Assembly: GCF_900113175.1 (NCBI RefSeq)
Contig: NZ_FOOK01000017.1
Location: 1-64,000 of the forward strand
Source: Planifilum fulgidum
Lineage (GTDB): Bacteria; Bacillota; Bacilli; Thermoactinomycetales; DSM-44946
Length of the DNA: 64,000 bases
Direction of reading: 5' to 3'
Shown: piece after piece, positions 4,459 through 36,086 of the stretch
How positions within the stretch are numbered: position 1 is the first letter of the stretch
How the letters are laid out: each line of letters begins with the position of its first letter
Translations under genes and position numbers: made by a program
Notes under the pieces: generated by a model
Told to the model about the DNA's origin: nothing
Databases searched by the model: none
What the model saw: only the letters and a program-made list of their open reading frames with translations

Positions 4459-6151
4459 GCTTCCCCTGGACCGGTGGGTGGACAAAGCCGTCCGATGGCT
4501 CCAGGATCACTTTGCCGCCCTGTTTGACTGGATTTCGTCCGGGATTCAGCCGCTTGTCGCCTTTTTCCAGTCCCTTTTCACCGCGTTGCCCCCGGTGCCG
4601 ACCGCCGTGCTCATCGCCGCCTTGGCGCTGTTGGCGAGCCGGCTGTCGGTGTCGCTGTTCACCCTGTTCGGTCTGCTTTTGATTTACAATCTGGGTTATT
4701 GGAACGAGGCGGCCGAAACCATCTCCCTGGTGCTGACCGCGACCACCCTTTCCGTCGTCGTCGGGGTTCCCCTGGGCATTGTGGCCGCCAAAAGCCGGAG
4801 GGCGCAAAACCTCCTCACTCCGATTTTGGACTTCATGCAGACAATGCCCGCCTTCGTCTATCTGATTCCGGCCGTGTTCTTCTTCGCCCTGGGGGCCGTG
4901 CCGGGAGTGATCGCTTCGGTCATCTTTGCAATGCCCCCGACCATTCGCCTCACCAGCCTCGGAATCCGTCAAGTGTCCGGCGACTTGATTGAGGCGGCGG
5001 AAGCCTTCGGCTCGACGCCCGCCCAGAAACTCTTCAAGGTGCAACTTCCCCTGGCCAAGTCGACGATCATGGCCGGAATCAACCAGACGATCATGCTTTC
5101 CCTGTCCATGGTCGTCATCGCTTCCATGATCGGGGCCGGCGGATTGGGCACCGTCGTGCTGCAGGCGATCACCCGCCTGGAGGTCGGAAAGGGCTTTGAA
5201 GGCGGATTGTCCATTGTGATCATCGCCATCATCCTGGATCGGATCACCCAAAGCTTGGCCCGGGACAGGAAACGGACACCCGTCCGGGAAAAAGGGAAAA
5301 AAGGGCGATGGAAAGCGGGATTGGCGATCCTGATCGTTCTTACGATGGTCGGCGCCGCCCTGGCGCAACATTCGGTGACAAACCAGCAAACCGTCACCCT
5401 GACCTATGTGAACTGGGAGTCGGAAGTGGCCAGCACCTATGTGTTGAAACACGTTCTGGAAGAGGAAGGCTTTCACGTGGAATTGAAGGAAGTGGATGCC
5501 GGCCCGATGTTCGCCGCGGTGGCCAGCGGGGATGCGGACGGCACGACGGCGGCTTGGCTGCCCGTGACCCACAAGGATTACATGGCGGAATACAAGGACC
5601 GGGTGGTTGATTTGGGCCCCAATCTGGAAGGAACCCGGGTCGGTCTGGTGGTGCCGGAGTATGTGGAGGCGGACTCCATCGAGGATCTGAAGAGCCGGGC
5701 GGAGGAGTTTGACAACCGGATCATCGGCATCGAAGCCGGGGCCGGCGTGGTCCAACTCGCGGAAAAAGCGATTGAAGATTACGGTCTGGACATGGAACTG
5801 GTGACCAGCTCCAGCGCGGCCATGACCGCGTCCCTCGAAAAGGCGTACCGGGCGAAGGAGCCGATCGTGGTCACCGGTTGGAAGCCTCACTGGAAATTTG
5901 CCAAGATGAAATTGAAGTTCCTGGAGGACACGAAGAAAACCTTCGGGGAAACGGAAAACATTCACACCCTGGTCCGGAAGGGATTGAAAGAGGACAATCC
6001 GAAGGCCTACCGGATCATGGACCGGTTCCGCTGGACTGCTCAGGACATGGAAGAAGTGATGCTGATGATCCAGGAAGGAAAGACGCCGGAGGAAGCCGCG
6101 GCCCACTGGGTGGAAAATCATCCGGACAAGGTGAAGGAGTGGACGAAGTAG
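4445..6151 (+). CDS. opuABC: OpuA permease fused to its substrate-binding domain
   Basis: A 568-residue fusion. Residues about 50-275 form the ProW-like permease with several membrane helices and the coupling-loop motif EAAEAFGSTPAQKL. A helix near residues 285-305 leads into an OpuAC-type binding domain that faces outside. Aromatic residues likely to form the betaine cage are visible (TYVNWESE, TAAWLPVTH, VTGWKPHWKF). The fusion is known from lactococcal and related OpuABC systems, whereas Bacillus subtilis has separate OpuAB and OpuAC. Overlap with opuAA and a terminator right after the stop define a two-gene operon. The last 42 bases plus the terminator are duplicated at 9047. Confidence 0.92.
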   Translation: MNLPKLPLDRWVDKAVRWLQDHFAALFDWISSGIQPLVAFFQSLFTALPPVPTAVLIAALALLASRLSVSLFTLFGLLLIYNLGYWNEAAETISLVLTATTLSVVVGVPLGIVAAKSRRAQNLLTPILDFMQTMPAFVYLIPAVFFFALGAVPGVIASVIFAMPPTIRLTSLGIRQVSGDLIEAAEAFGSTPAQKLFKVQLPLAKSTIMAGINQTIMLSLSMVVIASMIGAGGLGTVVLQAITRLEVGKGFEGGLSIVIIAIILDRITQSLARDRKRTPVREKGKKGRWKAGLAILIVLTMVGAALAQHSVTNQQTVTLTYVNWESEVASTYVLKHVLEEEGFHVELKEVDAGPMFAAVASGDADGTTAAWLPVTHKDYMAEYKDRVVDLGPNLEGTRVGLVVPEYVEADSIEDLKSRAEEFDNRIIGIEAGAGVVQLAEKAIEDYGLDMELVTSSSAAMTASLEKAYRAKEPIVVTGWKPHWKFAKMKLKFLEDTKKTFGETENIHTLVRKGLKEDNPKAYRIMDRFRWTAQDMEEVMLMIQEGKTPEEAAAHWVENHPDKVKEWTK

Positions 6152-6156
6152 AAGAA

Positions 6157-6183
6157 ACCACCGCCAACAGGCGGTGGTTTTTT
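6157..6183 (+). terminator. opuA operon terminator
   Basis: ACCACCGCC-aaca-GGCGGTGGT followed by T5, six bases after the opuABC stop. A copy with compensating loop changes lies at 9094-9120. Confidence 0.92.
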
Positions 6184-6230
6184 GCCGGATCCCTCAGGCG
6201 GGCGGCGGGATGTGCCACCCTTTTCCCGAT

Positions 6231-6470
6231 CTCCCTGGTTTCTGCGTTTTTCCGGCCGGAGCGTTTTCCGCCTTTTTCTTGGAAACAGCCAGAGGCGCAC
6301 CTCCTCCGGCAAATCGCTTGGAAGGGCTTCGACTTGATCGACGGTTTTCATCGAATAATGACATTGAACAAATACCAACCAACCGGTCATCGCTGGATGG
6401 GATGCGCGCTTCCAGACCGTTGTCCATGCTCATGCGGACCAGGAAGCGGGGGATACAAGGCGGGGCAATT
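6231..6470 (-). pseudogene. Rearranged, frameshifted fragment of asnB
   Basis: On the minus strand two frames together read MSMDNGLEAR, DDRLVG, YSMKTVDQVE and LPEEVR, which align with the C-terminal region of the asnB gene at 12530-14319 (nucleotides about 12778-12960). A separate 19-bp match to asnB around 13038-13056 lies at the low-coordinate end, so the piece order differs from the parent. Deletions (for example GCGCGGCGCAGC missing near 6320) and frameshifts show that it is dead. Downstream, 6471-6580 carries a strong hairpin and no gene. Confidence 0.7.
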
Positions 6471-8451: not shown

Positions 8452-9046
8452 TGGGTGCAAAAACCCGCATGAATGCATCCGCCATCGGCAGGATCTCCAC
8501 CCCCCGTCCGATCAGGCGTCCCTTCGGAAAGGGTTGCATCGATTCGATCATCCTCGGGGAACCTTCCGATCTTCGCTTCGTCGGCGAACAGAAGGGGGCG
8601 GACTGGACACTGAAAAGCGAGGGGACCGACGAGCCGATCGAGGTGACCAAGAAAGGGGACCAAATCGAGCTCGTCCGGAGCGAAAACCGGGAAACATTGT
8701 CCGAACGTCCCGGGACCATCTCCTGTTGCTCCGGGAGGCGGCCGGATCGGCATCCGCCCGAATGACATCGGCTCCAGCTTGGGCGGGAATCGCCGTTCCC
8801 CGATGGAGAAGAACGTCGATCTAGCCACGGTCACTGTGATGTAACCGATCGTCGCGTATGTTGGATTGACAGCGGACGTCACCAATCCGATCCTTCGTTT
8901 GGGGAGAAGGCGAGTTGTCACCAGGGCGGATCATGCGTAAAATGCCGCAATTCCTTAAACGTCAGCTGGCTTGCCTCGGTGCCCCCTCCCGCTTGCGCTC
9001 TAACCCGCATCACCGCCTCGATAAAAGCGGCTTCTCCCATCTCGGC
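8452..9046. other. Gene-poor stretch with unidentified coding remnants
   Basis: No complete gene is supported. Plus-strand frames contain protein-like pieces (for example LRFVGEQKGADWTLKSEG near 8570-8620, then GGRIGIRPNDIGSSLGGNRR in another frame near 8740-8800). Minus-strand 8935-9045 reads MGEAAFIEAVMRVRAQAGGG and ASQLTFKELRHF before a stop. None was recognised. The change of frame and lack of ribosome sites suggest decayed genes left by rearrangement. Confidence 0.4.
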
Positions 9047-9275
9047 GTGGAAAATCATCCGGACAAGGTGAAGGAGTGGACGAAGTAGAAGAAACCACCG
9101 CCTGTTGGCGGTGGTTTTTTGTCGGATCCCTCAGGCGGGGCGGCGGGATGTGCCACCTTTTTCCCGATCTCCCTGGTTTCTGCGTTTTTCCGGCCGGATC
9201 GTTTTCCACCTTTTTCTTGGAAACAGCCAGATGCGCACTTCCTCCGGCAAATCACTTGGAAAGGCGCGGCGCAGA
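9047..9275. repeat. Second copy of the opuABC tail, its terminator and asnB debris
   Basis: Bases 9047 to about 9250 match 6110 to about 6309 at roughly 95% by eye: the last 14 codons of opuABC, the terminator (9094-9120) and the following asnB-like debris. The match starts abruptly at GTGGAAAATCATCCGG. At the right end this copy keeps AAGGCGCGGCGCAG, which also occurs in asnB (near 12806) but is missing from the 6.3-kb copy. Both copies therefore derive from a longer ancestor. Confidence 0.85.
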
Positions 9276-9801
9276 GGGAACGAAAGGAACAACGGGCTTT
9301 TTTTCGATCTCCCCTCAAATCGACGAGTCGTCCGTTCCAAGGCGAAACCGCGGTGGAGGAGCCTCATTCGTTGATCCGTAAATCGTTGCCACTTTTGAGG
9401 CGTGTCCACCACATACCCGATTTGATCAACGCCCATCACCTTCATCAAGGTCAACGTTTCCTGCAACAGATGCGTGCCGATGGAAAGATGCCGCTCATGC
9501 TCCCAAGGCAAGTCCAACAGCACCGGTTTTCCGATCTTGGGGAGGGCCCAATGGGCGCCACGGCCCGTCAGCCGATTTTCCTGCGGGGCGACAAGCACCC
9601 CTTTCGGCGGATCGACCCCTTTTGCATCATCCGGTCCACATACAGTTTCACGTCGTCGGCATGGCCGGGATCGGTCCATACGACGATGAAATCCTTCCAT
9701 TTATCCGGTCGGACGGGGCGAACCGGGATGAAATTCCTTAAAACGGAGGATAAAAAAACCGAAACAAAAGGTGGGCGGCACGGCATCTTTATTCCTTTCA
9801 C
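9276..9801 (-). pseudogene. GNAT-like acetyltransferase remnant with frameshift
   Basis: Two overlapping minus-strand frames join into one protein: WKDFIVVWTDPGHADDVKLY and VDRMMQKG, then VDPPKGVLVAPQENRLTG, LSIGTHLLQETLTLMK, VMGVDQIGYVV and MRLLHRGFALERTTRRF. The last part has the shape of a GNAT C-terminus. The switch falls in a GGGG run near 9615-9622, where one added G would restore the frame. The 3' end runs into the asnB debris at about 9275, so the gene also lost its natural end. GNAT is a tentative recognition from the C-terminal pattern only. Confidence 0.5.
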
Positions 9802-11340: not shown

Positions 11341-11831
11341 CATGAGAAAAAGCGCGTGTTTCGACGGCCACCGTCTCCCGGGTGTTGAACGGGCATCCGT
11401 ACGTGTCCGAACGTAGCCGTCCGGCGGTTGAAGAAGCCATTCGCCAGCTGAATTACACTCCCAATTCCTCGGCGGTTCATCTGAAGCGGGGAAAGAACCG
11501 GGGTCATCGCCGCCATTATCAAGCAGCGACGTCGCCCAGTGCGAAACCCAGGCAAGGGACGCGGTCCTGATCAACCTGCTCTCCCTCAAATATTTGATCC
11601 GCGAAGCCGTCGACGCAGGAGTTGAAAAATTATTTTCCCGTCTTCTTTTGCCGTCTACGATCCCCGTTCGACGACGATCACCCGCTGGCTTGGCAGGTGA
11701 AGCTGTCCGTGCCGCTAAAGCCGACGTCCGGAGTGTAGGTGAAGGAGCCGTCGGGATTCAATACGAGCGTTTCGTTGGCGGAACCGTCGACCAACTGGGC
11801 CGTCAGCGGATCGCCGCATGAGAAAAAGCGC
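11341..11831. mobile_element. Patchwork insertion of three gene fragments flanked by a 15-bp direct repeat
   Basis: Both ends carry CATGAGAAAAAGCGC (11341-11355 and 11817-11831). Between them, 11356 to about 11523 copies the start of the LacI gene (16776-16942), 11521-11684 copies the epimerase gene (20523-20684), and 11683-11816 is the reverse complement of the second repeat of the tandem-95 gene (about 19462-19598). Each piece is about 97% identical to its source, and the junctions share about one base. There is no transposase and no open frame. The type label is a convenience: this is an inserted segment, not a known element. Confidence 0.85.
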
Positions 11832-12482: not shown

Positions 12483-12522
12483 AAAAAAAGGCTGAGCGCC
12501 TTATGAACACCCAGCCTTTTTT
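12483..12522 (-). terminator. asnB terminator
   Basis: AAAGGCTG and CAGCCTTT stem with an 18-base loop and a minus-strand T7 tract, directly after the asnB stop. Confidence 0.8.
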
Positions 12523-12529
12523 CATGGGA

Positions 12530-14319
12530 CTACAGTTTCAACGAGATCTTGTAGTCCCGCAACCACTGATTGACGTGAAGGACAAATTCCATCATTTTTC
12601 CGACTTCAAAGGGAGCTTTTTCGAAGAGATGTCCGGAAATGTAGTTGAGTTTTTGTTTGTCCAAAAAGGGAACCAGAGGCGCTTGCGGATCTTCGATCAT
12701 TTCATTCAACATGCTGCGGATGTTTTGGTAGTACCCCGGATCCGTGTTCGAGGGATAAGCGCTTTTCTTGCGGGTGAGCACTTCTTCCGGCAAATAACCT
12801 TGAAAGGCGCGGCGCAGCAGGCTTTTTTCGACTTGATCGACGGTTTTCATCGAATAGGGAACGTTGAACAAATATTGGACCAACCGGTAATCGCTGAATG
12901 GAACACGCGCTTCCAGACCGTTGTCCATGCTCATGCGGTCTTTCCGCTCCAGCAAATAGGACAGGAAGCGGGTGATGAAAAGGTAGGACATTTCGCGCTG
13001 TTTTTCTTCGATTCCCGTTCTTGATATCTGCGTTCCCTGTGTTCTTCCGGCCGGAGCGTTTTCAGCGTCTCTTCATTCAATATGTCTCGGAAGTAGCGAA
13101 TTTGCGCGCTCCATGGGAACGTTCCGGAGAACAAAAATTCATCCTGGTGAAACCAGGGATATCCGCTGAAAACTTCATCGGCGGATTCACCGGACAGGGT
13201 GACCGTCGCATCTTTTTTCATTTCACGGAACAACAGATGCAGCGAAGCTTCCATTTCGCCCAGTGCCGGCAAATCACGGGCTTTCAGGGGGCGGAACAGG
13301 TGTTCAGTCAGCTCGTCCCGGCTGATGACCACCGTGCGGTGATCGGTATGGGCGTATTCTGAAACGATTTTCACAAACGGCTCATCCCGGCTGGCGTGCA
13401 ACAGGCTGGTTTTGAAGTGCTGCTCGCTTCCGGCAAAGTCAAGGGAGTAGGTGCGGAGTCTTTTGCCTTCTTCCGCCAGATACCGGGAAGCCATGGAAGC
13501 GAGCCCGCTGGAATCCAGTCCGCCGGACAACATGGACACGACGGGTTTATCGGCGATCAATTGGCGTTTGACGGTGTCTTTCAGGATTTCCCGGATTTTT
13601 TCAACCGTCGAATCCACATCGTCTTCATGCGGTTTGCTTTCCAGTTTCCAATATTGGCGATGATGCGCTTTTTCTTTTGTGAAAATGATGTAATGACCCG
13701 GCCGGACTTCCTGAATCCCGCGGAACACACCGAAACCGGGTGTGCGGATGGGACCCATCGCGAAGATTTCGCTGAATCCTTCGGCGTCCACTTCCGGTTG
13801 GACTTCCGGATGCGCCAGGAGGGCCTTCAATTCGGAAGCGAACAGCAGGCCGGTATGATGCACCTTATAAAAGAGGGGCTTGACGCCGAGGCGGTCGCGG
13901 GCCAGCATCAATGCGCTTTGCCGTTCATCCCAGATGGCAAAGGCAAACGCCCCGTTTATGCGCCGGATGAAATCTTCTCCCCATTCCAAATAACTGCGCA
14001 GCAACACTTCCGCATCCGATTTCGTCCCGAACCGGTGGCCGAGGTTTTCAAGTTCCGATTTCAGTTCCTGATAGTCATCAATAAACCCGTCGCAGGAAAG
14101 CACGATGGAGTGATCCCCCGAGCGCCAAACCATCGGTTGTTTTCCGTCGGCGGGATCGAGGACATGGAGACGGCGGTGACCCATCGCCGCGCGCTTGGAT
14201 AACCAATGCCCTTCATCATCGGGGCCGCGATGCCGAATCGCATCGGTCATGGAGCGCAATACATCCCGCTTCCCGGACAGGTCCCTTTGCCAGTCGATCC
14301 AACCCGCAACGCCGCTCAT
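12530..14319 (-). pseudogene. asnB: Asparagine synthetase (glutamine-hydrolysing type), frameshifted and glutaminase-impaired
   Basis: Two frames together encode an AsnB/AsnO-like protein of about 595 residues. Frame 1 (start 14319, SD AAAGGAGATGATT) covers the Ntn domain and most of the synthetase domain, with the PP-loop SMLSGGLDSSGLAS and LSGESADEVFSGYPWF intact. A missing base in the CCC run at 13014-13016 shifts the frame; one added base restores EEKQREMSYLF and the rest to 12530. The N-terminus reads MSGVAGWIDW, so the catalytic Cys2 nucleophile is Ser (codon AGC), and the usual NGE glutamine-binding loop reads CDGFIDD. Glutaminase activity should be lost; an ammonia-dependent enzyme would be possible only if the frameshift is a sequencing error. 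Pieces of this gene are scattered at 6.2 and 9.2 kb. Confidence 0.85.
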
Positions 14320-14669
14320 GCCAAATCATCTCCTTTAATGAAGTGACGAAATTCCCAACATATTTTATTTTAAAACAACGAAGGAAAAAATGAAAATCTT
14401 TTTGTAGAGCGGGCACAAAAAATAGGATTTGAGGGAATCGGTTTGTGCAGAAAACCGGATGAAACGGGCAAAAACGGCCTTGCCGAAAAAAGGTTTCCCG
14501 CGACAAGGCGCTGCTGCGCGTAAGCAAAATCAAAAGAAAACGGAAACGTTTCAAAGATTGCTGTGAAAGGCGGGGGGAGAAGCGTTTTTTGCCGCTGTTT
14601 TCGGGCTAAAAAACGTTACAAAATGTTTCTTTTGTTACGTTGATGCCGAGCAAATCCTTTTTGGATGAC

Positions 14670-16736: not shown

Positions 16737-17733
16737 ATGGCCAACATTAAGGATATCGCCAAAAAAGGCCGGTGTTTCGACGGCCACCGTCTCCCGGGTG
16801 TTGAACGGGCATCCGTACGTGTCCGAACGGAGCCGTCTGGCGGTTGAAGAAGCCATTCGCCAGCTGAATTACACCCCCAATTCCTCGGCGGTTCATCTGA
16901 AGCGGGGAAAAACCGGGGTCATCGCCGCCATTATCAAGCGCATCGATCACCCCTTCATGAGCGGCTTGATGCAGGGAATCGGCGAGGTCGCCCTGAGAAA
17001 GGGATACCAGATCATGGTGTGTCAAACCCGGCTTCAGGCGCGGGAAGAACTGAGATTTCTCCATCTGTTGCAGACCAAACAGGTGGACGGCATCCTTCTG
17101 GAAGACATGCAAAACGATTGGAAGGAGGTGGCGCCCTATGCCGCCTGCGGATCGCTCGTTCTGGTGAATTCCTATGAGGAAAAAGCCAACGTTCCCATGG
17201 TTTACGTCAACAACTACAACGGCGCCCGGCAGGCCCTCCTCCACCTGGTGGAAAAAGGGCACCGAGCGATCGCCGTCTGCCTGGCGAAACGGAACAACAC
17301 CCTTTGCACGGTGCAGGGTCCCCGCTGGCGGGCCTATCAGGATGTCCTTGCCGAAGCGGGAATCGAAATAAACAGCCGCTATGTTTTTGAAAATGTAGGC
17401 ACGAGCAATGTCCTCTCCGGAAAAGAACTCTTCCGGGCCATACGGGAGATGTCGAACAAACCCACCGCCCTGTTCACGGGCAGCGACCAAGTGGCCGCGG
17501 GCTTTATCCTCGAGGCGCAGAGGCACGGGGTCCGGATACCCGAAGACATCGCCGTCGTCGGCTTTGACAACCAACCGATCGCCGAACTGATGGATATCAC
17601 AACCGTATATCAACCCACCCGGGAAATGGGAGAACACGCCTCGGAAATCCTGTTCCGCTTGATCGAGGGTTCGCCCGTCGACCCAAGCGTCGTCGAAATG
17701 CCTCACCAATTGGTGGTGCGGTCCACCACCTGA
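16737..17733 (+). pseudogene. LacI/CcpB-type transcriptional regulator, frameshifted in the DNA-binding helix
   Basis: From ATG 16737 (SD GGGTGGTG) the frame reads MANIKDIAKK, then breaks at A6GG (16761-16768). Removing one base gives [20 protein letters not shown], the textbook LacI helix-turn-helix and hinge. The remainder to 17733 is an intact ligand-binding domain ([50 protein letters not shown]). A protein starting at GTG 16798 would lack DNA binding. Total corrected length is about 331 residues. Next to the xylanase, it may be a sugar-responsive regulator. The frameshift may be real, a slippage site, or a sequencing error. Its first 180 bases were copied into the patchwork at 11.4 kb. 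Confidence 0.85.
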
Positions 17734-17849: not shown

Positions 17850-18064
17850 CGACCAAGTGAAGCCGAATGAGCGGACCGTGTGCCCTCCTCAATAAAGGAA
17901 TTGGTGTAGACGAGCCCCTCCGGTCTTGCTCCACAACATTTTCCGGGGAAACCTCTCATCTCCACCCGTTGCTTCAGATGCTCCGGATCCGTAAACGCCT
18001 TGTACACCTGCTCCTGCGGCGCATCGAAGGTGCGCGCGATATACAACTCGTTCGGATTGGACAT
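17850..18064 (-). pseudogene. SRPBCC/AHSA1-like protein remnant
   Basis: Minus strand from 18064: MSNPNELYIARTFDAPQE, then QVYKAFTDPEHLKQ, the standard N-terminus of AHSA1-type SRPBCC proteins. It then diverges into shifted frames (ERFPRKMLWSKTGG, then LVYTNSFIEEGT) and lacks the rest of the domain. Upstream 18065-18360 reads protein-like in part (ERLKEPNDWPETFRPVGEER) but was not recognised. Confidence 0.6.
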
Positions 18065-20307: not shown

Positions 20308-21219
20308 ATGATTCTGATCACCGGCGCGGCGGGATATATCGGAACCAAGCTGGTGGATTTTCTCTCCAAAAGGGGCATGCCGATCCGGGCCATCGACAAT
20401 TTCCGGGTGCAGACCGTGTCTGAAATCAACGGCGTGCCCATCGAAAAAATGGATCTGACGGTGGAAGAAGATGTGAAAAAGATGGTCCGGGATGTCCGCA
20501 CCATCATCCATTTGGGAGCCATCAGCGACGTCGCCCAGTGCGAAACCCAGGCAAGGGACGCGGTCCTGATCAACCTGCTCTCCCTCAAATACTTGATCCG
20601 CGAAGCCGTCAACGCAGGAGTTGAAAAAATCATTTTCCCGTCTTCTTTTGCCGTCTACGATCCCCGTTCGACGACGATCACCGAGCAATCGCCGGCAAAT
20701 CCCAGAAACTTCTACGGACAGCTCAAGAAGTGGGCGGAAGAGCTGCTTCTCGCCGAACAAGAAAGAGGCAATCTGGAAACCGTGATCTTCCGGCAGGCCA
20801 ACGTTTACGGCAGGAGCCGGGTGCCGAAGCAAACCGTGGTGGAAAGCTTCTGCAAGGCGCTGCTTGCCAACCAAAAAATCCAGGTCCGCGGGACCGGACG
20901 ACAGACGCGCAACTTCATCCACGTGGATGACGTGGTGTGGGCCTATCATCAGGCCCTTTCCCCTTCCGTCCGCGGCATCTACAATCTCGGCGGGGAAGAA
21001 ACCTTGAGCATTTGGGACCTTGCCCAACTGGTCAACCAAGTAGGACGGGAATGCCTCGGACGGTCGGTTCCCGTCGTCCGCCGGCAAAAAGGCGCCTTTA
21101 AAGAAGAAAGAACGCATTTTGCCGCTGTGGATACCGGAAAAATAAAAACGCTCTTCAGGGGGAGAAAATTGAAAAGCCTCAAAGAGGGGATACGGGAATA
21201 CTTCCTGGATCCCGCCTAG
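20308..21219 (+). CDS. NAD-dependent nucleotide-sugar epimerase/dehydratase
   Basis: 303 residues, extended SDR family. The Rossmann nucleotide motif is GAAGYIGTKLV at the N-terminus, followed by IHLGAISDVAQ, the catalytic serine in IIFPSSFAVYD and YGQLKKWAEE (Tyr-x3-Lys). RQANVYGRSR and NFIHVDDVVWAYHQA are typical of sugar epimerases. Substrate not predictable. It starts immediately at the end of the Sm-like gene and ends with a 4-bp overlap with the convergent acetyltransferase. A 162-bp piece of this gene is found in the patchwork at 11.5 kb. Confidence 0.88.
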   Translation: MILITGAAGYIGTKLVDFLSKRGMPIRAIDNFRVQTVSEINGVPIEKMDLTVEEDVKKMVRDVRTIIHLGAISDVAQCETQARDAVLINLLSLKYLIREAVNAGVEKIIFPSSFAVYDPRSTTITEQSPANPRNFYGQLKKWAEELLLAEQERGNLETVIFRQANVYGRSRVPKQTVVESFCKALLANQKIQVRGTGRQTRNFIHVDDVVWAYHQALSPSVRGIYNLGGEETLSIWDLAQLVNQVGRECLGRSVPVVRRQKGAFKEERTHFAAVDTGKIKTLFRGRKLKSLKEGIREYFLDPA

Positions 21220-25262: not shown

Positions 25263-26867
25263 ATGAAATGGTACTACCTTGAAAACTACGTCAACTATGT
25301 TGAAACCGTTCCTTCCGGATTCAAAGAGAACAACATCCCCCTCTTTGTGCCCAAACCGGACCTGACGCCCCAGGAGCTGGTCCATCAGCTGAACCAATAC
25401 CGTCCGGATGTCATTCTGACCAACGGGTGGACCCCCTTTCATCGGGAACCCTACTTCCAGGTCGTCAGACGTTATTGCGAAGAAACCGACAGCCTTCACG
25501 TGTTTTGGTCCACGGAAGATCCTCTTCACACCGATTATTGGTCATTGTATGTATTGGAAACCGGGCGGCCCGATGTCGTTTTCACCCATTCCTACGACTG
25601 CACGAAAATATACCAGGAAAGGGGACTCCCTTCCTATTACCTCCCCTTTGCCTGCAATCCCCGGATTCACCGCACCCTGCCCCCGGTGCCGCAGTATCAG
25701 TCGGATGTGGCTCTGGTCGCCAATTTCTCCAACGCGACCATGGAAAGCTGGCGTCTGCAGAGCCTCCGCATTTTGCTGGAACCCTTGCTGCGGGAAAACA
25801 TCTCGTTGAAGATCTGGGGGAAGGGTTGGGAGCAGGGGAAAAACCTTCTCCCGTTTTCGGTGCCGAATCATGTCATCGGCGGCCCCATTCCCTACAGGCG
25901 CGTTCCCTACGTGTACGCTTCCGCCAAGATTATTCTCGGGATTCAGAACCACCAGGAAGTTTTAACCCGCCGAACATGGGAGTGCATCGGGACGGGCGGT
26001 TTGTTGATCACCAACCACATCCCCGCCGTGCTTCGCCATTTCAAGCCCAATCATCACCTGCTGACCAGTCGCCATCCGGAAGAGACCCGCGCCCTGGTCC
26101 GCAACCTGCTGAAAAACCGGCCGCTGCGCGACCGCATTGCGGCCAACGGTCAAAAGCATGTTCATCAAAACCACCGCTACGGCCACCGCGTGCGGGAAAT
26201 GGTGGAAAAGGTCTCCGAGTTGCTGCAATTCAAGCGGGAACAGCGGAGAAGCTACCGGTTTCCTTCCCCCTCTCCCGTTCAGGAGATTCGAAGCCGGCAG
26301 GCATTTACCTGCACCTCCCCCGGCGGGCAGCCGATGGATCGGCCGACATTGGTGATCAAAAGAAATAAAGGACTGCTGAGGGATTATCGAAGCTGTTTGC
26401 TGTTCCCCCTCGAATCCTGTCTGAACGAAGGATTCGATGTCCAACTGGCCCGGGTGAAATTGTTTCTCTCCGTCAATCCCGACCGGAACACCGCGATCAA
26501 ATGCCAATATTTCAGTTCCAAGGAACAGCCCACCAGCCTCCCCCGCGATCTCGTCCTGGAAGGAGAAAGCAGCGCGATACCCGTCACCGCGATAAACAAG
26601 GAAAAACCTTATCAAGCGCCGGTGACGATCCCGGTCACTCCCCTGGTTAGGCGTTTGATCCGGGAAGGGAAAAAAACCTTGATGATTTACCTGTCCATCC
26701 CGCCTGAGAAGGAGGGAACCGTCCAATTTCTGGGACCGCAGATCCCGAGAACCCATCCTCTGGCCAAACTTGTATATTACGAACGCTTCACGCCCCGTTT
26801 GGAAATCAGGTATCGGAGGCGTCCCGGGACGGACCTAAATCCCCCCTGGGAGCCGTTTGCCCGTTAG
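25263..26867 (+). CDS. CgeB-like spore-surface glycosyltransferase with C-terminal accessory domain
   Basis: 534 residues from ATG 25263, which follows GGTGGGTGGGC; the GTG at 25251 lies before that site. Residues about 1-330 match the CgeB/spore-maturation glycosyltransferase family: HVFWSTEDPLHTDYWSLYVL, VFTHSYDCTKIYQERG, the GT-B donor region YASAKIILGIQNHQEVLTRR and WECIGTGGLLIT. After a linker, residues about 340-530 form a beta-rich domain (FPLESCLNEGFDVQLARVKL) like DNRLRE/propeptide-type domains. Expected to move sugars onto the spore outer layer. Last gene of the cluster and convergent with the RDD gene, four bases away. Confidence 0.85.
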   Translation: MKWYYLENYVNYVETVPSGFKENNIPLFVPKPDLTPQELVHQLNQYRPDVILTNGWTPFHREPYFQVVRRYCEETDSLHVFWSTEDPLHTDYWSLYVLETGRPDVVFTHSYDCTKIYQERGLPSYYLPFACNPRIHRTLPPVPQYQSDVALVANFSNATMESWRLQSLRILLEPLLRENISLKIWGKGWEQGKNLLPFSVPNHVIGGPIPYRRVPYVYASAKIILGIQNHQEVLTRRTWECIGTGGLLITNHIPAVLRHFKPNHHLLTSRHPEETRALVRNLLKNRPLRDRIAANGQKHVHQNHRYGHRVREMVEKVSELLQFKREQRRSYRFPSPSPVQEIRSRQAFTCTSPGGQPMDRPTLVIKRNKGLLRDYRSCLLFPLESCLNEGFDVQLARVKLFLSVNPDRNTAIKCQYFSSKEQPTSLPRDLVLEGESSAIPVTAINKEKPYQAPVTIPVTPLVRRLIREGKKTLMIYLSIPPEKEGTVQFLGPQIPRTHPLAKLVYYERFTPRLEIRYRRRPGTDLNPPWEPFAR

Positions 26868-26871
26868 CGCG

Positions 26872-27624
26872 TCATTGGATGGAGGAATACCGGGTCTGCT
26901 TCAGATAGGCATAGATCTTTTCGAGGAGGAGTTCGGCATCGTCAGGTTCTGTTTCCCCGTCCGCTTGGATCCGCCGCAAAAGATTTTGGGCCAGCGCTTT
27001 TCTTCGGTCGGGATCCATCTGGCTTCGCCGTTTCAAAAACTCCTCGATGAGCAAATACTGATCGTCTCCCAGCCGTCCAAACGGTCGCAGCCTGTTTTTT
27101 TCATCCTCCGACAGGGGAAGTTCCGCAAGGGAACTTTTCCCTTTTTTTCGCTTGCTTTTTCTCTCGCGGATCACCAGCGTCCCCGCCGCCAGATCGCCGA
27201 TTCGCTTTTCCTTGCGGTGTAGCCACATGAAAATCAAACCGATCAGCAGAAAGAGATCCGCGAGAATCAGGACATTGCGCAAAAAAATCGCCCAAAAGCC
27301 GGGACTCTGGCCGGTATCCGTCACCAGGCGCAGTCCCATTATTCGCTTTCCGACCGTCTGGCCCGTGAAATATTCCGTGAGCACGAAGTAGGCCAGGGGA
27401 AGTGCGGCGGAGACCACCAAAAAGACGGCAAAGAAGACGGATGCGGGAAGATGCCCGGATATCACCAGCACAGTAAAGGGAAGGGAGAGGGTGAGCAGCA
27501 AAAAGTTCACCAGCGATATCAGGGCCAAATCGATCAATTTGGCGGCGGCCCGGCTTCCGAGGCCGGCCGTCTCAAACCGGATCTCCACGTATTCGGGAGT
27601 GATCACGGCGACGCGATTCTCCAT
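26872..27624 (-). CDS. RDD-family membrane protein
   Basis: 250 residues with the RDD domain (GLGSRAAAKLIDLALISLVN, then GQTVGKRIMGLRLV) and about four membrane helices. A charged cytoplasmic tail follows (residues about 175-250: RKSKRKKGKSS, EEFLKRRSQMDPDRRKALAQ). ATG 27624 has GGGGAGAGG before it; the frame stays open much further upstream but overlaps the divergent gene, so that extension was rejected. RDD proteins accompany MoxR/DUF58/SpoIIM loci; proposed roles include ion or osmolyte transport. The tail coding region is duplicated, with a deletion, at 35759-35989. Confidence 0.88.
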   Translation of the reverse strand: MENRVAVITPEYVEIRFETAGLGSRAAAKLIDLALISLVNFLLLTLSLPFTVLVISGHLPASVFFAVFLVVSAALPLAYFVLTEYFTGQTVGKRIMGLRLVTDTGQSPGFWAIFLRNVLILADLFLLIGLIFMWLHRKEKRIGDLAAGTLVIRERKSKRKKGKSSLAELPLSEDEKNRLRPFGRLGDDQYLLIEEFLKRRSQMDPDRRKALAQNLLRRIQADGETEPDDAELLLEKIYAYLKQTRYSSIQ

Positions 27625-35738: not shown

Positions 35739-35989
35739 GAAAAAGCCCGAGGCTTTGTTTGGGAATTGGCGGCCGTTTGAGCGGCTGGGAGAGGAGTTTT
35801 TAAAACGGCGAAGCCAGATGGATCCCGACCGAAGAAAAGCGCTGGCCCAAAATCTCCTGCGGCGGATCCAAGCGGACGGGGAAAGCGAACCTGACGATGC
35901 CGAACTCCTTCTCGAGAAGATCTATGCCTATCTGAGACAGACCCGGTATTCCTCCATCCAATGACGCGCTAACGGACAAACGGCTGACA
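35739..35989 (+). pseudogene. Inverted duplicate of the RDD-gene tail
   Basis: Read on the plus strand, 35775-35964 encodes RPFERLG, EEFLKRRSQMDPDRRKALAQ and LLLEKIYAYLRQTRYSSIQ, ending in the same stop as the RDD gene (26872). Similarity continues about 25 bp past the stop into the 3' end of the CgeB gene. Relative to the parent, a segment coding for about nine residues (DDQYLLIE region) is deleted at 35794. No start or ribosome site belongs to it. Bases 35567-35738 upstream show nothing recognisable. Confidence 0.85.
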
Positions 35990-36086
35990 AGGGAAAATAA
36001 AACGCCCTCTGCGGAAAACCGACCGGCCCCGAGGCGCACCCTTGATTCGGGTAGCGCGGTCGGGCGATGGAATGAAGTGGGTTTTT

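Follow-up and report, generated by a model that had tools for sequence, protein, structure and literature searches.

Glutamine amidotransferases serve as models for the coupling of two active sites through an ammonia tunnel. An asparagine synthetase engineered to carry serine instead of its catalytic cysteine (Cys1Ser) loses glutamine use, and the fold of the ammonia-dependent synthetase AsnA is not known to be related to that of AsnB. In human ASNS, Asn74, Gly75 and Glu76 are conserved glutamine-site residues (PMC6748925); the glutamine-site Asn and Glu are also described for the wheat and E. coli enzymes, and the Thr and Arg of the E. coli DVTTIRAS segment are listed for aspartate/ATP binding (PMC5775275). 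Enzymes related to asparagine synthetase (AS) are often repurposed (PMC13060819). Our literature search, which had most subscription journals outside its reach, found no paper on natural Cys2Ser asparagine synthetases. Here we describe a gene with this replacement in a 64,000-nucleotide stretch of Planifilum fulgidum DNA (the window), together with its closest relatives, which include a copy in a genome of the same genus (G002).

The disrupted asnB-like gene

The locus comprises the following features:

12530..14319 (-): disrupted AsnB/AsnO-like synthetase gene; first frame of 462 aa, 607 aa in intact relatives
14330..14336 (-): Shine-Dalgarno-like AAAGGAG, whose GGAGATGAT core is kept in 4/4 Ser2 copies
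13705..14319 (-): class II glutaminase (Ntn/GATase) domain, codons 1-205 (PF13537/PF13522), relaxed on the window branch
14314..14316 (-): codon 2, AGC (Ser), replacing the nucleophile Cys; common to G002, T. vulgaris and T. mirandus
14074..14094 (-): glutamine-site loop, residues 76-82, CDGFIDD (N77D, E79F, Y81D, N82D); YNGEIYN in most Cys2 relatives
13507..13527 (-): ATP PP-loop SGGLDSS, intact
13017..13018 (-): frame-shifting 34-bp net deletion after codon 434, from a DNA alignment with G002, T. vulgaris and T. mirandus
12931..13017 (-): out-of-frame tail, 28 codons after E434, ending in a stop at residue 462
12530..13015 (-): C-terminal remnant of 161 residues in another frame, matching PF00733 positions 210-354; dN/dS about 0.1-0.16
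12749..12775 (-): TRKKSAYPS motif, conserved in the synthetase domain, downstream of the frame break
12488..12502 (-): terminator-like hairpin downstream of the gene; in relatives the gene is likewise followed by such a stem and a T-run, at no more than chance level in a scan

The first frame contains 462 codons, 434 of them homologous to the family, and scores 366 bits against TIGR01536, above the curated AsnB cut-off of 267. In a profile search, each half of the gene has matches to TIGR01536 and PF00733, with PF13537 matched by the first half in addition; the cut-off of the lasso cyclase family NF033535 is missed (205 bits vs 525). The MSGVAGW start, the CDGFIDD loop and the intact SGGLDSS PP-loop reported by an earlier sequence-only reading of the window are all present, and the gene lies on the minus strand at the coordinates given there. 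The AsnB norm is an MCG start, and where the relatives have NGEIYN the window reads SCDGFIDDY, so that in the glutamine site Arg50, Gly78 and Asp102 are kept, with Asn replaced by Asp and Glu by Phe. Since the gene lacks the defining Cys2 and glutamine site, the name 'glutamine-hydrolysing asparagine synthetase' does not suit it; that TIGR01536-based annotation labels such proteins 'glutamine-hydrolyzing' despite the lost glutamine site is a warning.

The same reading had called a one-base frameshift at 13005-13020. The alignment rules this out: the lesion is the 34-bp net deletion between 13018 and 13017, equivalent to 11 codons plus one base when compared with the copies of G002, T. vulgaris and T. 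mirandus. As a result, the RKKS segment of the synthetase domain is missing from the window product and the C-terminal motifs are out of frame; a PP-loop of the form SGGxDS and the downstream synthetase motifs share one frame in the three intact Ser2 relatives and not in the window. Of the 15 codons that changed beyond the deletion, 5 are nonsynonymous, compared with 76% expected without constraint (P = 6e-4 against neutrality). Because these downstream codons are constrained, with a dN/dS near 0.1, the deletion should be either recent or false, and an intact synthetase would have been present for most of the window branch. The window copy is most likely a recent pseudogene, mis-assembly being less likely; that the loss is recent is inferred from this residual constraint.

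Relatives, origins of Ser2 and selection on the two halves

The nearest homologues of the window gene are those of G002 (89% identity), T. vulgaris DSM 43016 (81%) and T. mirandus (68%), each with 607 intact codons, an MSG start, and the PP-loop and RKKS motif kept. The next group, at 55-60% (T. daqus, Marinithermofilum, Fictibacillus, Rossellomorea and others), starts with MCG and carries NGE[IL]YN. In a tree of 76 proteins, the four Ser2 copies form one clade (100/100 support) nested among Cys2 enzymes. The loop states within this clade are YNGEIYN (T. mirandus), FDGFIYN (T. vulgaris), YDGFIYN (G002) and CDGFIDD (window). Ser2 is thus not a private decay of the window copy, which inherited it, along with most of the loop changes, from the clade. 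Cys2 had been taken as otherwise invariant, and relatives with an intact Cys2 and NGE had been named as the mark of a simple pseudogene; the nearest relatives all carry Ser2.

Two further Ser2 enzymes occur elsewhere in Bacilli. One, in G012, starts ATG TCT GGA, retains the NGEIYN loop and is frame-broken in mid-gene; the other, in G347 (40% identical), starts ATG AGC GGT, also retains NGEIYN and has an open frame of 617 codons. Ser2 thus has at least three origins, two of them independent of the window clade. The replacement is rare: our pattern survey covered 399 Bacilli genomes, 166 of them with a match, and nearly all AsnB-type proteins among the matches listed have Cys2. Two candidate classes of further Cys2 loss were rejected: at the loci read, no AsnB frame begins at the MTGISGW/MSGITGW starts seen in several Bacilli, and the readable pattern matches with Gly or Ala at residue 2 are unrelated proteins.

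The distribution of the gene does not follow that of rpoB. RpoB of the window genome is 91% identical to that of genome G006 and 87% to that of T. vulgaris, whereas for the asnB-like gene the corresponding values are 60% and 81%; another AsnB of the window genome is 62% identical to its T. vulgaris counterpart. The simplest reading of these identities suggests that the gene passed horizontally between Thermoactinomyces and the genus of the window.

Selection on the two halves, which the sequence-only reading had proposed to compare, was estimated with codon models (61 states, branch classes, F3x4 frequencies) and comes, on the window branch, to a dN/dS of about 0.26 for the glutaminase half and about 0.1 for the synthetase half. 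Separate fits give 0.25 and 0.105, respectively, and a fit to the four Ser2 copies only, with separate branch lengths, gives 0.262 and 0.106 (difference p = 0.027). The joint 14-taxon model gives 0.32 and 0.086 (p = 2e-5), but it shares branch lengths, and the glutaminase half also has a slightly raised level of synonymous change, so that the conservative p is preferable. By counting, the changed codons on the window branch are 15 nonsynonymous/23 synonymous in the glutaminase half and 9/27 in the synthetase half; the N/S ratio does not separate the domains on this branch (p = 0.22), whereas the density of nonsynonymous changes differs between them (p = 0.004). On the window branch, the synthetase half remained under purifying selection and the glutaminase half was relaxed. 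There is general relaxation as well, with dN/dS raised in both domains in part of the Ser2 clade: in the joint model, the other Ser2/DGF branches have values of about 0.2 in both halves, as against 0.06-0.08 for the T. mirandus and Cys2 branches. For the glutaminase half, T. mirandus has a value of 0.056, compared with 0.060 for Cys2 enzymes, on a branch near synonymous saturation; with this half constrained to the same degree as in Cys2 enzymes, some function may survive the Ser2 change by itself. For the stem branch, dN/dS reaches 7.4 in one partition and was discarded as uninterpretable, its synonymous sites being saturated.

Genomic surroundings

Three further full AsnB-family frames, all with Cys2, are present in the window genome, and another Cys2 AsnB occurs in 8/8 genomes compared. 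AsnA (PF03590) was found in none of the eight genomes (the window genome and seven relatives), with a control match in E. coli. At least 4 of the 13 subfamily copies found in Thermoactinomycetales are frame-broken (window, G012, G027 and G024). The broken copies outside the window, in three Thermoactinomycetales genomes, are each interrupted at a different place (L058:8842-10661, which is the Ser2 copy of G012, L059:8923-10748 and L060:8933-10766).

Across the loci compared, no operon or biosynthetic cluster around the gene is conserved. The asnB-like locus is collinear between G002 and the window; one small neighbouring gene is common to the window, G002 and T. mirandus, which share no other neighbour. 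Three loci of genus g5 (L053, L055 and L057) have a Cys2 relative near nadB-, nadC- and nadA-like genes, a TetR-type regulator and a symporter (names assigned by eye).

The surroundings contain further lesions and duplications. Two genes that are open in G002 are broken in the window, one GNAT-like (8746-9729) and one SRPBCC-like (about 17885-18064); the reverse is true of a lacI-type regulator gene (16798-17733), broken in G002 and open in the window (gene names assigned by eye). At a terminator, positions 11342-11831 form a mosaic of three short segments copied from nearby genes and placed end to end: 11347-11524 corresponds to 16763-16939 in the lacI-type gene (96%), 11524-11682 to 20523-20682 in an epimerase gene (97.5%), and 11683-11816 to 19599-19466, reversed (96%). 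This mosaic has a 14-bp direct repeat, ATGAGAAAAAGCGC, on its flanks and is absent from the collinear site of G002; in a search of the whole 3.38 Mb genome its sources lie only within 10 kb, except for one 50-bp match (84%) on contig C16. As a guess, template switching during replication or a locally templated repair might have produced it. At 6242-6437, after the terminator of a transporter gene ending at 6151, lie rearranged pieces of the asnB-like gene (12775-12938 and 13037-13066; 88-90%), and a 219-bp copy of 6110-6327 is inserted in the GNAT-like gene at 9047-9274, the sources of both being local. Finally, 26843-27045 and 35791-35993 are inverted copies of about 203 bp, 93.6% identical and 9 kb apart.

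Probable course of glutaminase loss, alternatives and known systems

The staged changes, the shared clade, the unequal selection and the deletion are established at the level of sequence. They are best accounted for, with fair probability in our judgement, by a stepwise loss of the glutaminase that left a presumably ammonia-fed synthetase, followed by recent pseudogenization of the window copy. The ancestor would have been a glutamine-dependent AsnO/TsnB9-like synthetase. Cys2 would have changed to Ser in the ancestor of the four Thermoactinomycetales copies, the loop from NGEIYN to DGFIYN in the common ancestor of the copies in T. vulgaris, G002 and the window, and then to DGFIDD in the window only, the ATP-dependent synthetase half being retained throughout. 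The amide would be made from free ammonia and not from glutamine, the gene would have moved horizontally between Thermoactinomyces and the genus of the window, and the 34-bp deletion would be the last step, truncating what is most likely now a recent pseudogene. For the intact relatives, we infer that glutaminase activity has been lost and that ammonia is used. A decaying gene, or an ammonia-dependent or differently used enzyme, was the choice offered by the sequence-only reading; both seem to hold, in succession, with an altered enzyme in the clade and then a deletion in the window. Among relatives at 68-89% identity to the window copy, the glutaminase is seen to be dismantled in a readable order with the synthetase constrained, and this series allows a direct test of how, and in what order, the coupling breaks down and of whether Ser can take over from Cys.

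Several other readings bear on parts of this scheme. The subfamily could simply be dispensable beside other AsnB genes, Ser2, the loop changes and frame loss being ordinary stages of decay; the frame-broken copies across the order, the joint occurrence of Ser2 and a frameshift in G012, the other Cys2 AsnB in each of the eight genomes and the neighbouring window genes broken relative to G002 all fit this. We nevertheless hold it to be rather unlikely, because the frames of the clade are intact in three other genomes, over 607 codons, and the synthetase domain is constrained (dN/dS about 0.1 on the window branch), which argues for an altered enzyme and not for decay of the window copy; the apparent movement of the gene between genera also speaks against decay. 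If the deletion were an assembly or sequencing fault, the window copy would really be intact, as the constraint persisting downstream of the break and the draft state of the assembly (62 contigs) might suggest. A 34-bp loss outside a homopolymer is, however, atypical of base-calling errors, and nearby window genes show other real-looking lesions and insertions; gene loss being common in the region, a real deletion is plausible, and a fault quite improbable.

The serine could also be a working N-terminal nucleophile, as in other Ntn hydrolases, enzymes with Ser2 and an intact NGE still hydrolysing an amide donor. All three independent replacements are indeed to Ser, by two codon routes (AGY and TCT), Ser2 coexists with an intact NGEIYN in T. 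mirandus, G012 and G347, and the glutaminase domain of T. mirandus is fully constrained. Yet single-step codon access and Met removal favour Ser too, the loss of glutamine use by engineered Cys1Ser counts against a working serine, and the proposal hardly fits the window, G002 and T. vulgaris copies, in which the glutamine-site Asn and Glu are also gone; we regard it as doubtful. A carboxylate other than aspartate, as in TsnB9, beta-lactam synthetase and the lasso cyclases, the nucleophile being ammonia or a substrate amine, is somewhat unlikely. It would agree with TsnB9 being closer than AsnB among solved structures, with the frequent repurposing of AS-like enzymes (PMC13060819) and with the replacement of the E. 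coli DVTTIRAS segment by DLPALGEMEAS in the window. This segment is DLPGIGEMETS in Cys2 relatives, however, and DLPG is found throughout the AsnO-like branch as sampled, including the other AsnO-like copy of the window genome; nor is there a shared biosynthetic cluster in the loci compared. Elements of these proposals can be combined into a horizontally shared AsnB-type series at successive steps of glutaminase loss, running from a constrained Ser2/NGE state, possibly a serine-nucleophile amidase, to an ammonia- or amine-fed synthetase with a non-aspartate substrate, a scheme we consider unlikely as a whole.

Compared with known systems, the window gene resembles AsnB/AsnO (TIGR01536; 1CT9) in its two-domain architecture, PP-loop, SGExADE and RKKS motifs and score above the cut-off, but it is without Cys2, the glutamine-site Asn and Glu and the E. 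coli TTxR segment, and its reading frame is interrupted. Modelled with AlphaFold2, the G002 protein is folded across both domains (pTM 0.85); its structural matches, best first, are TsnB9 (TM 0.88-0.94, 37% identity), AsnB and human ASNS, and the beta-lactam and carbapenam synthetases. The hydroxyamidotransferase TsnB9 (7YLZ) is thus the nearest solved structure by fold as well as by sequence (E = 4e-147), which makes aspartate no more than a putative substrate of the window-type enzyme. TsnB9 keeps MCG where the window gene has MSG, and it lies in a hydroxamate cluster (PMC13418202), none such being seen around the window gene. Neighbouring amidooxygenase genes would mark a TsnB9-type enzyme; the neighbours in the loci of the relatives, compared with each other, form no shared cluster. 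The likeness of the window-type enzyme to the ammonia-dependent AsnA (PF03590) lies in the proposed use of ammonia. Beta-lactam synthetase (1JGT) and carbapenam synthetase (1Q15) are 16-19% identical by fold alignment and differ in making beta-lactams. Both are AsnB-fold enzymes that presumably no longer use glutamine, and they provide a structural precedent for a dead glutaminase domain.
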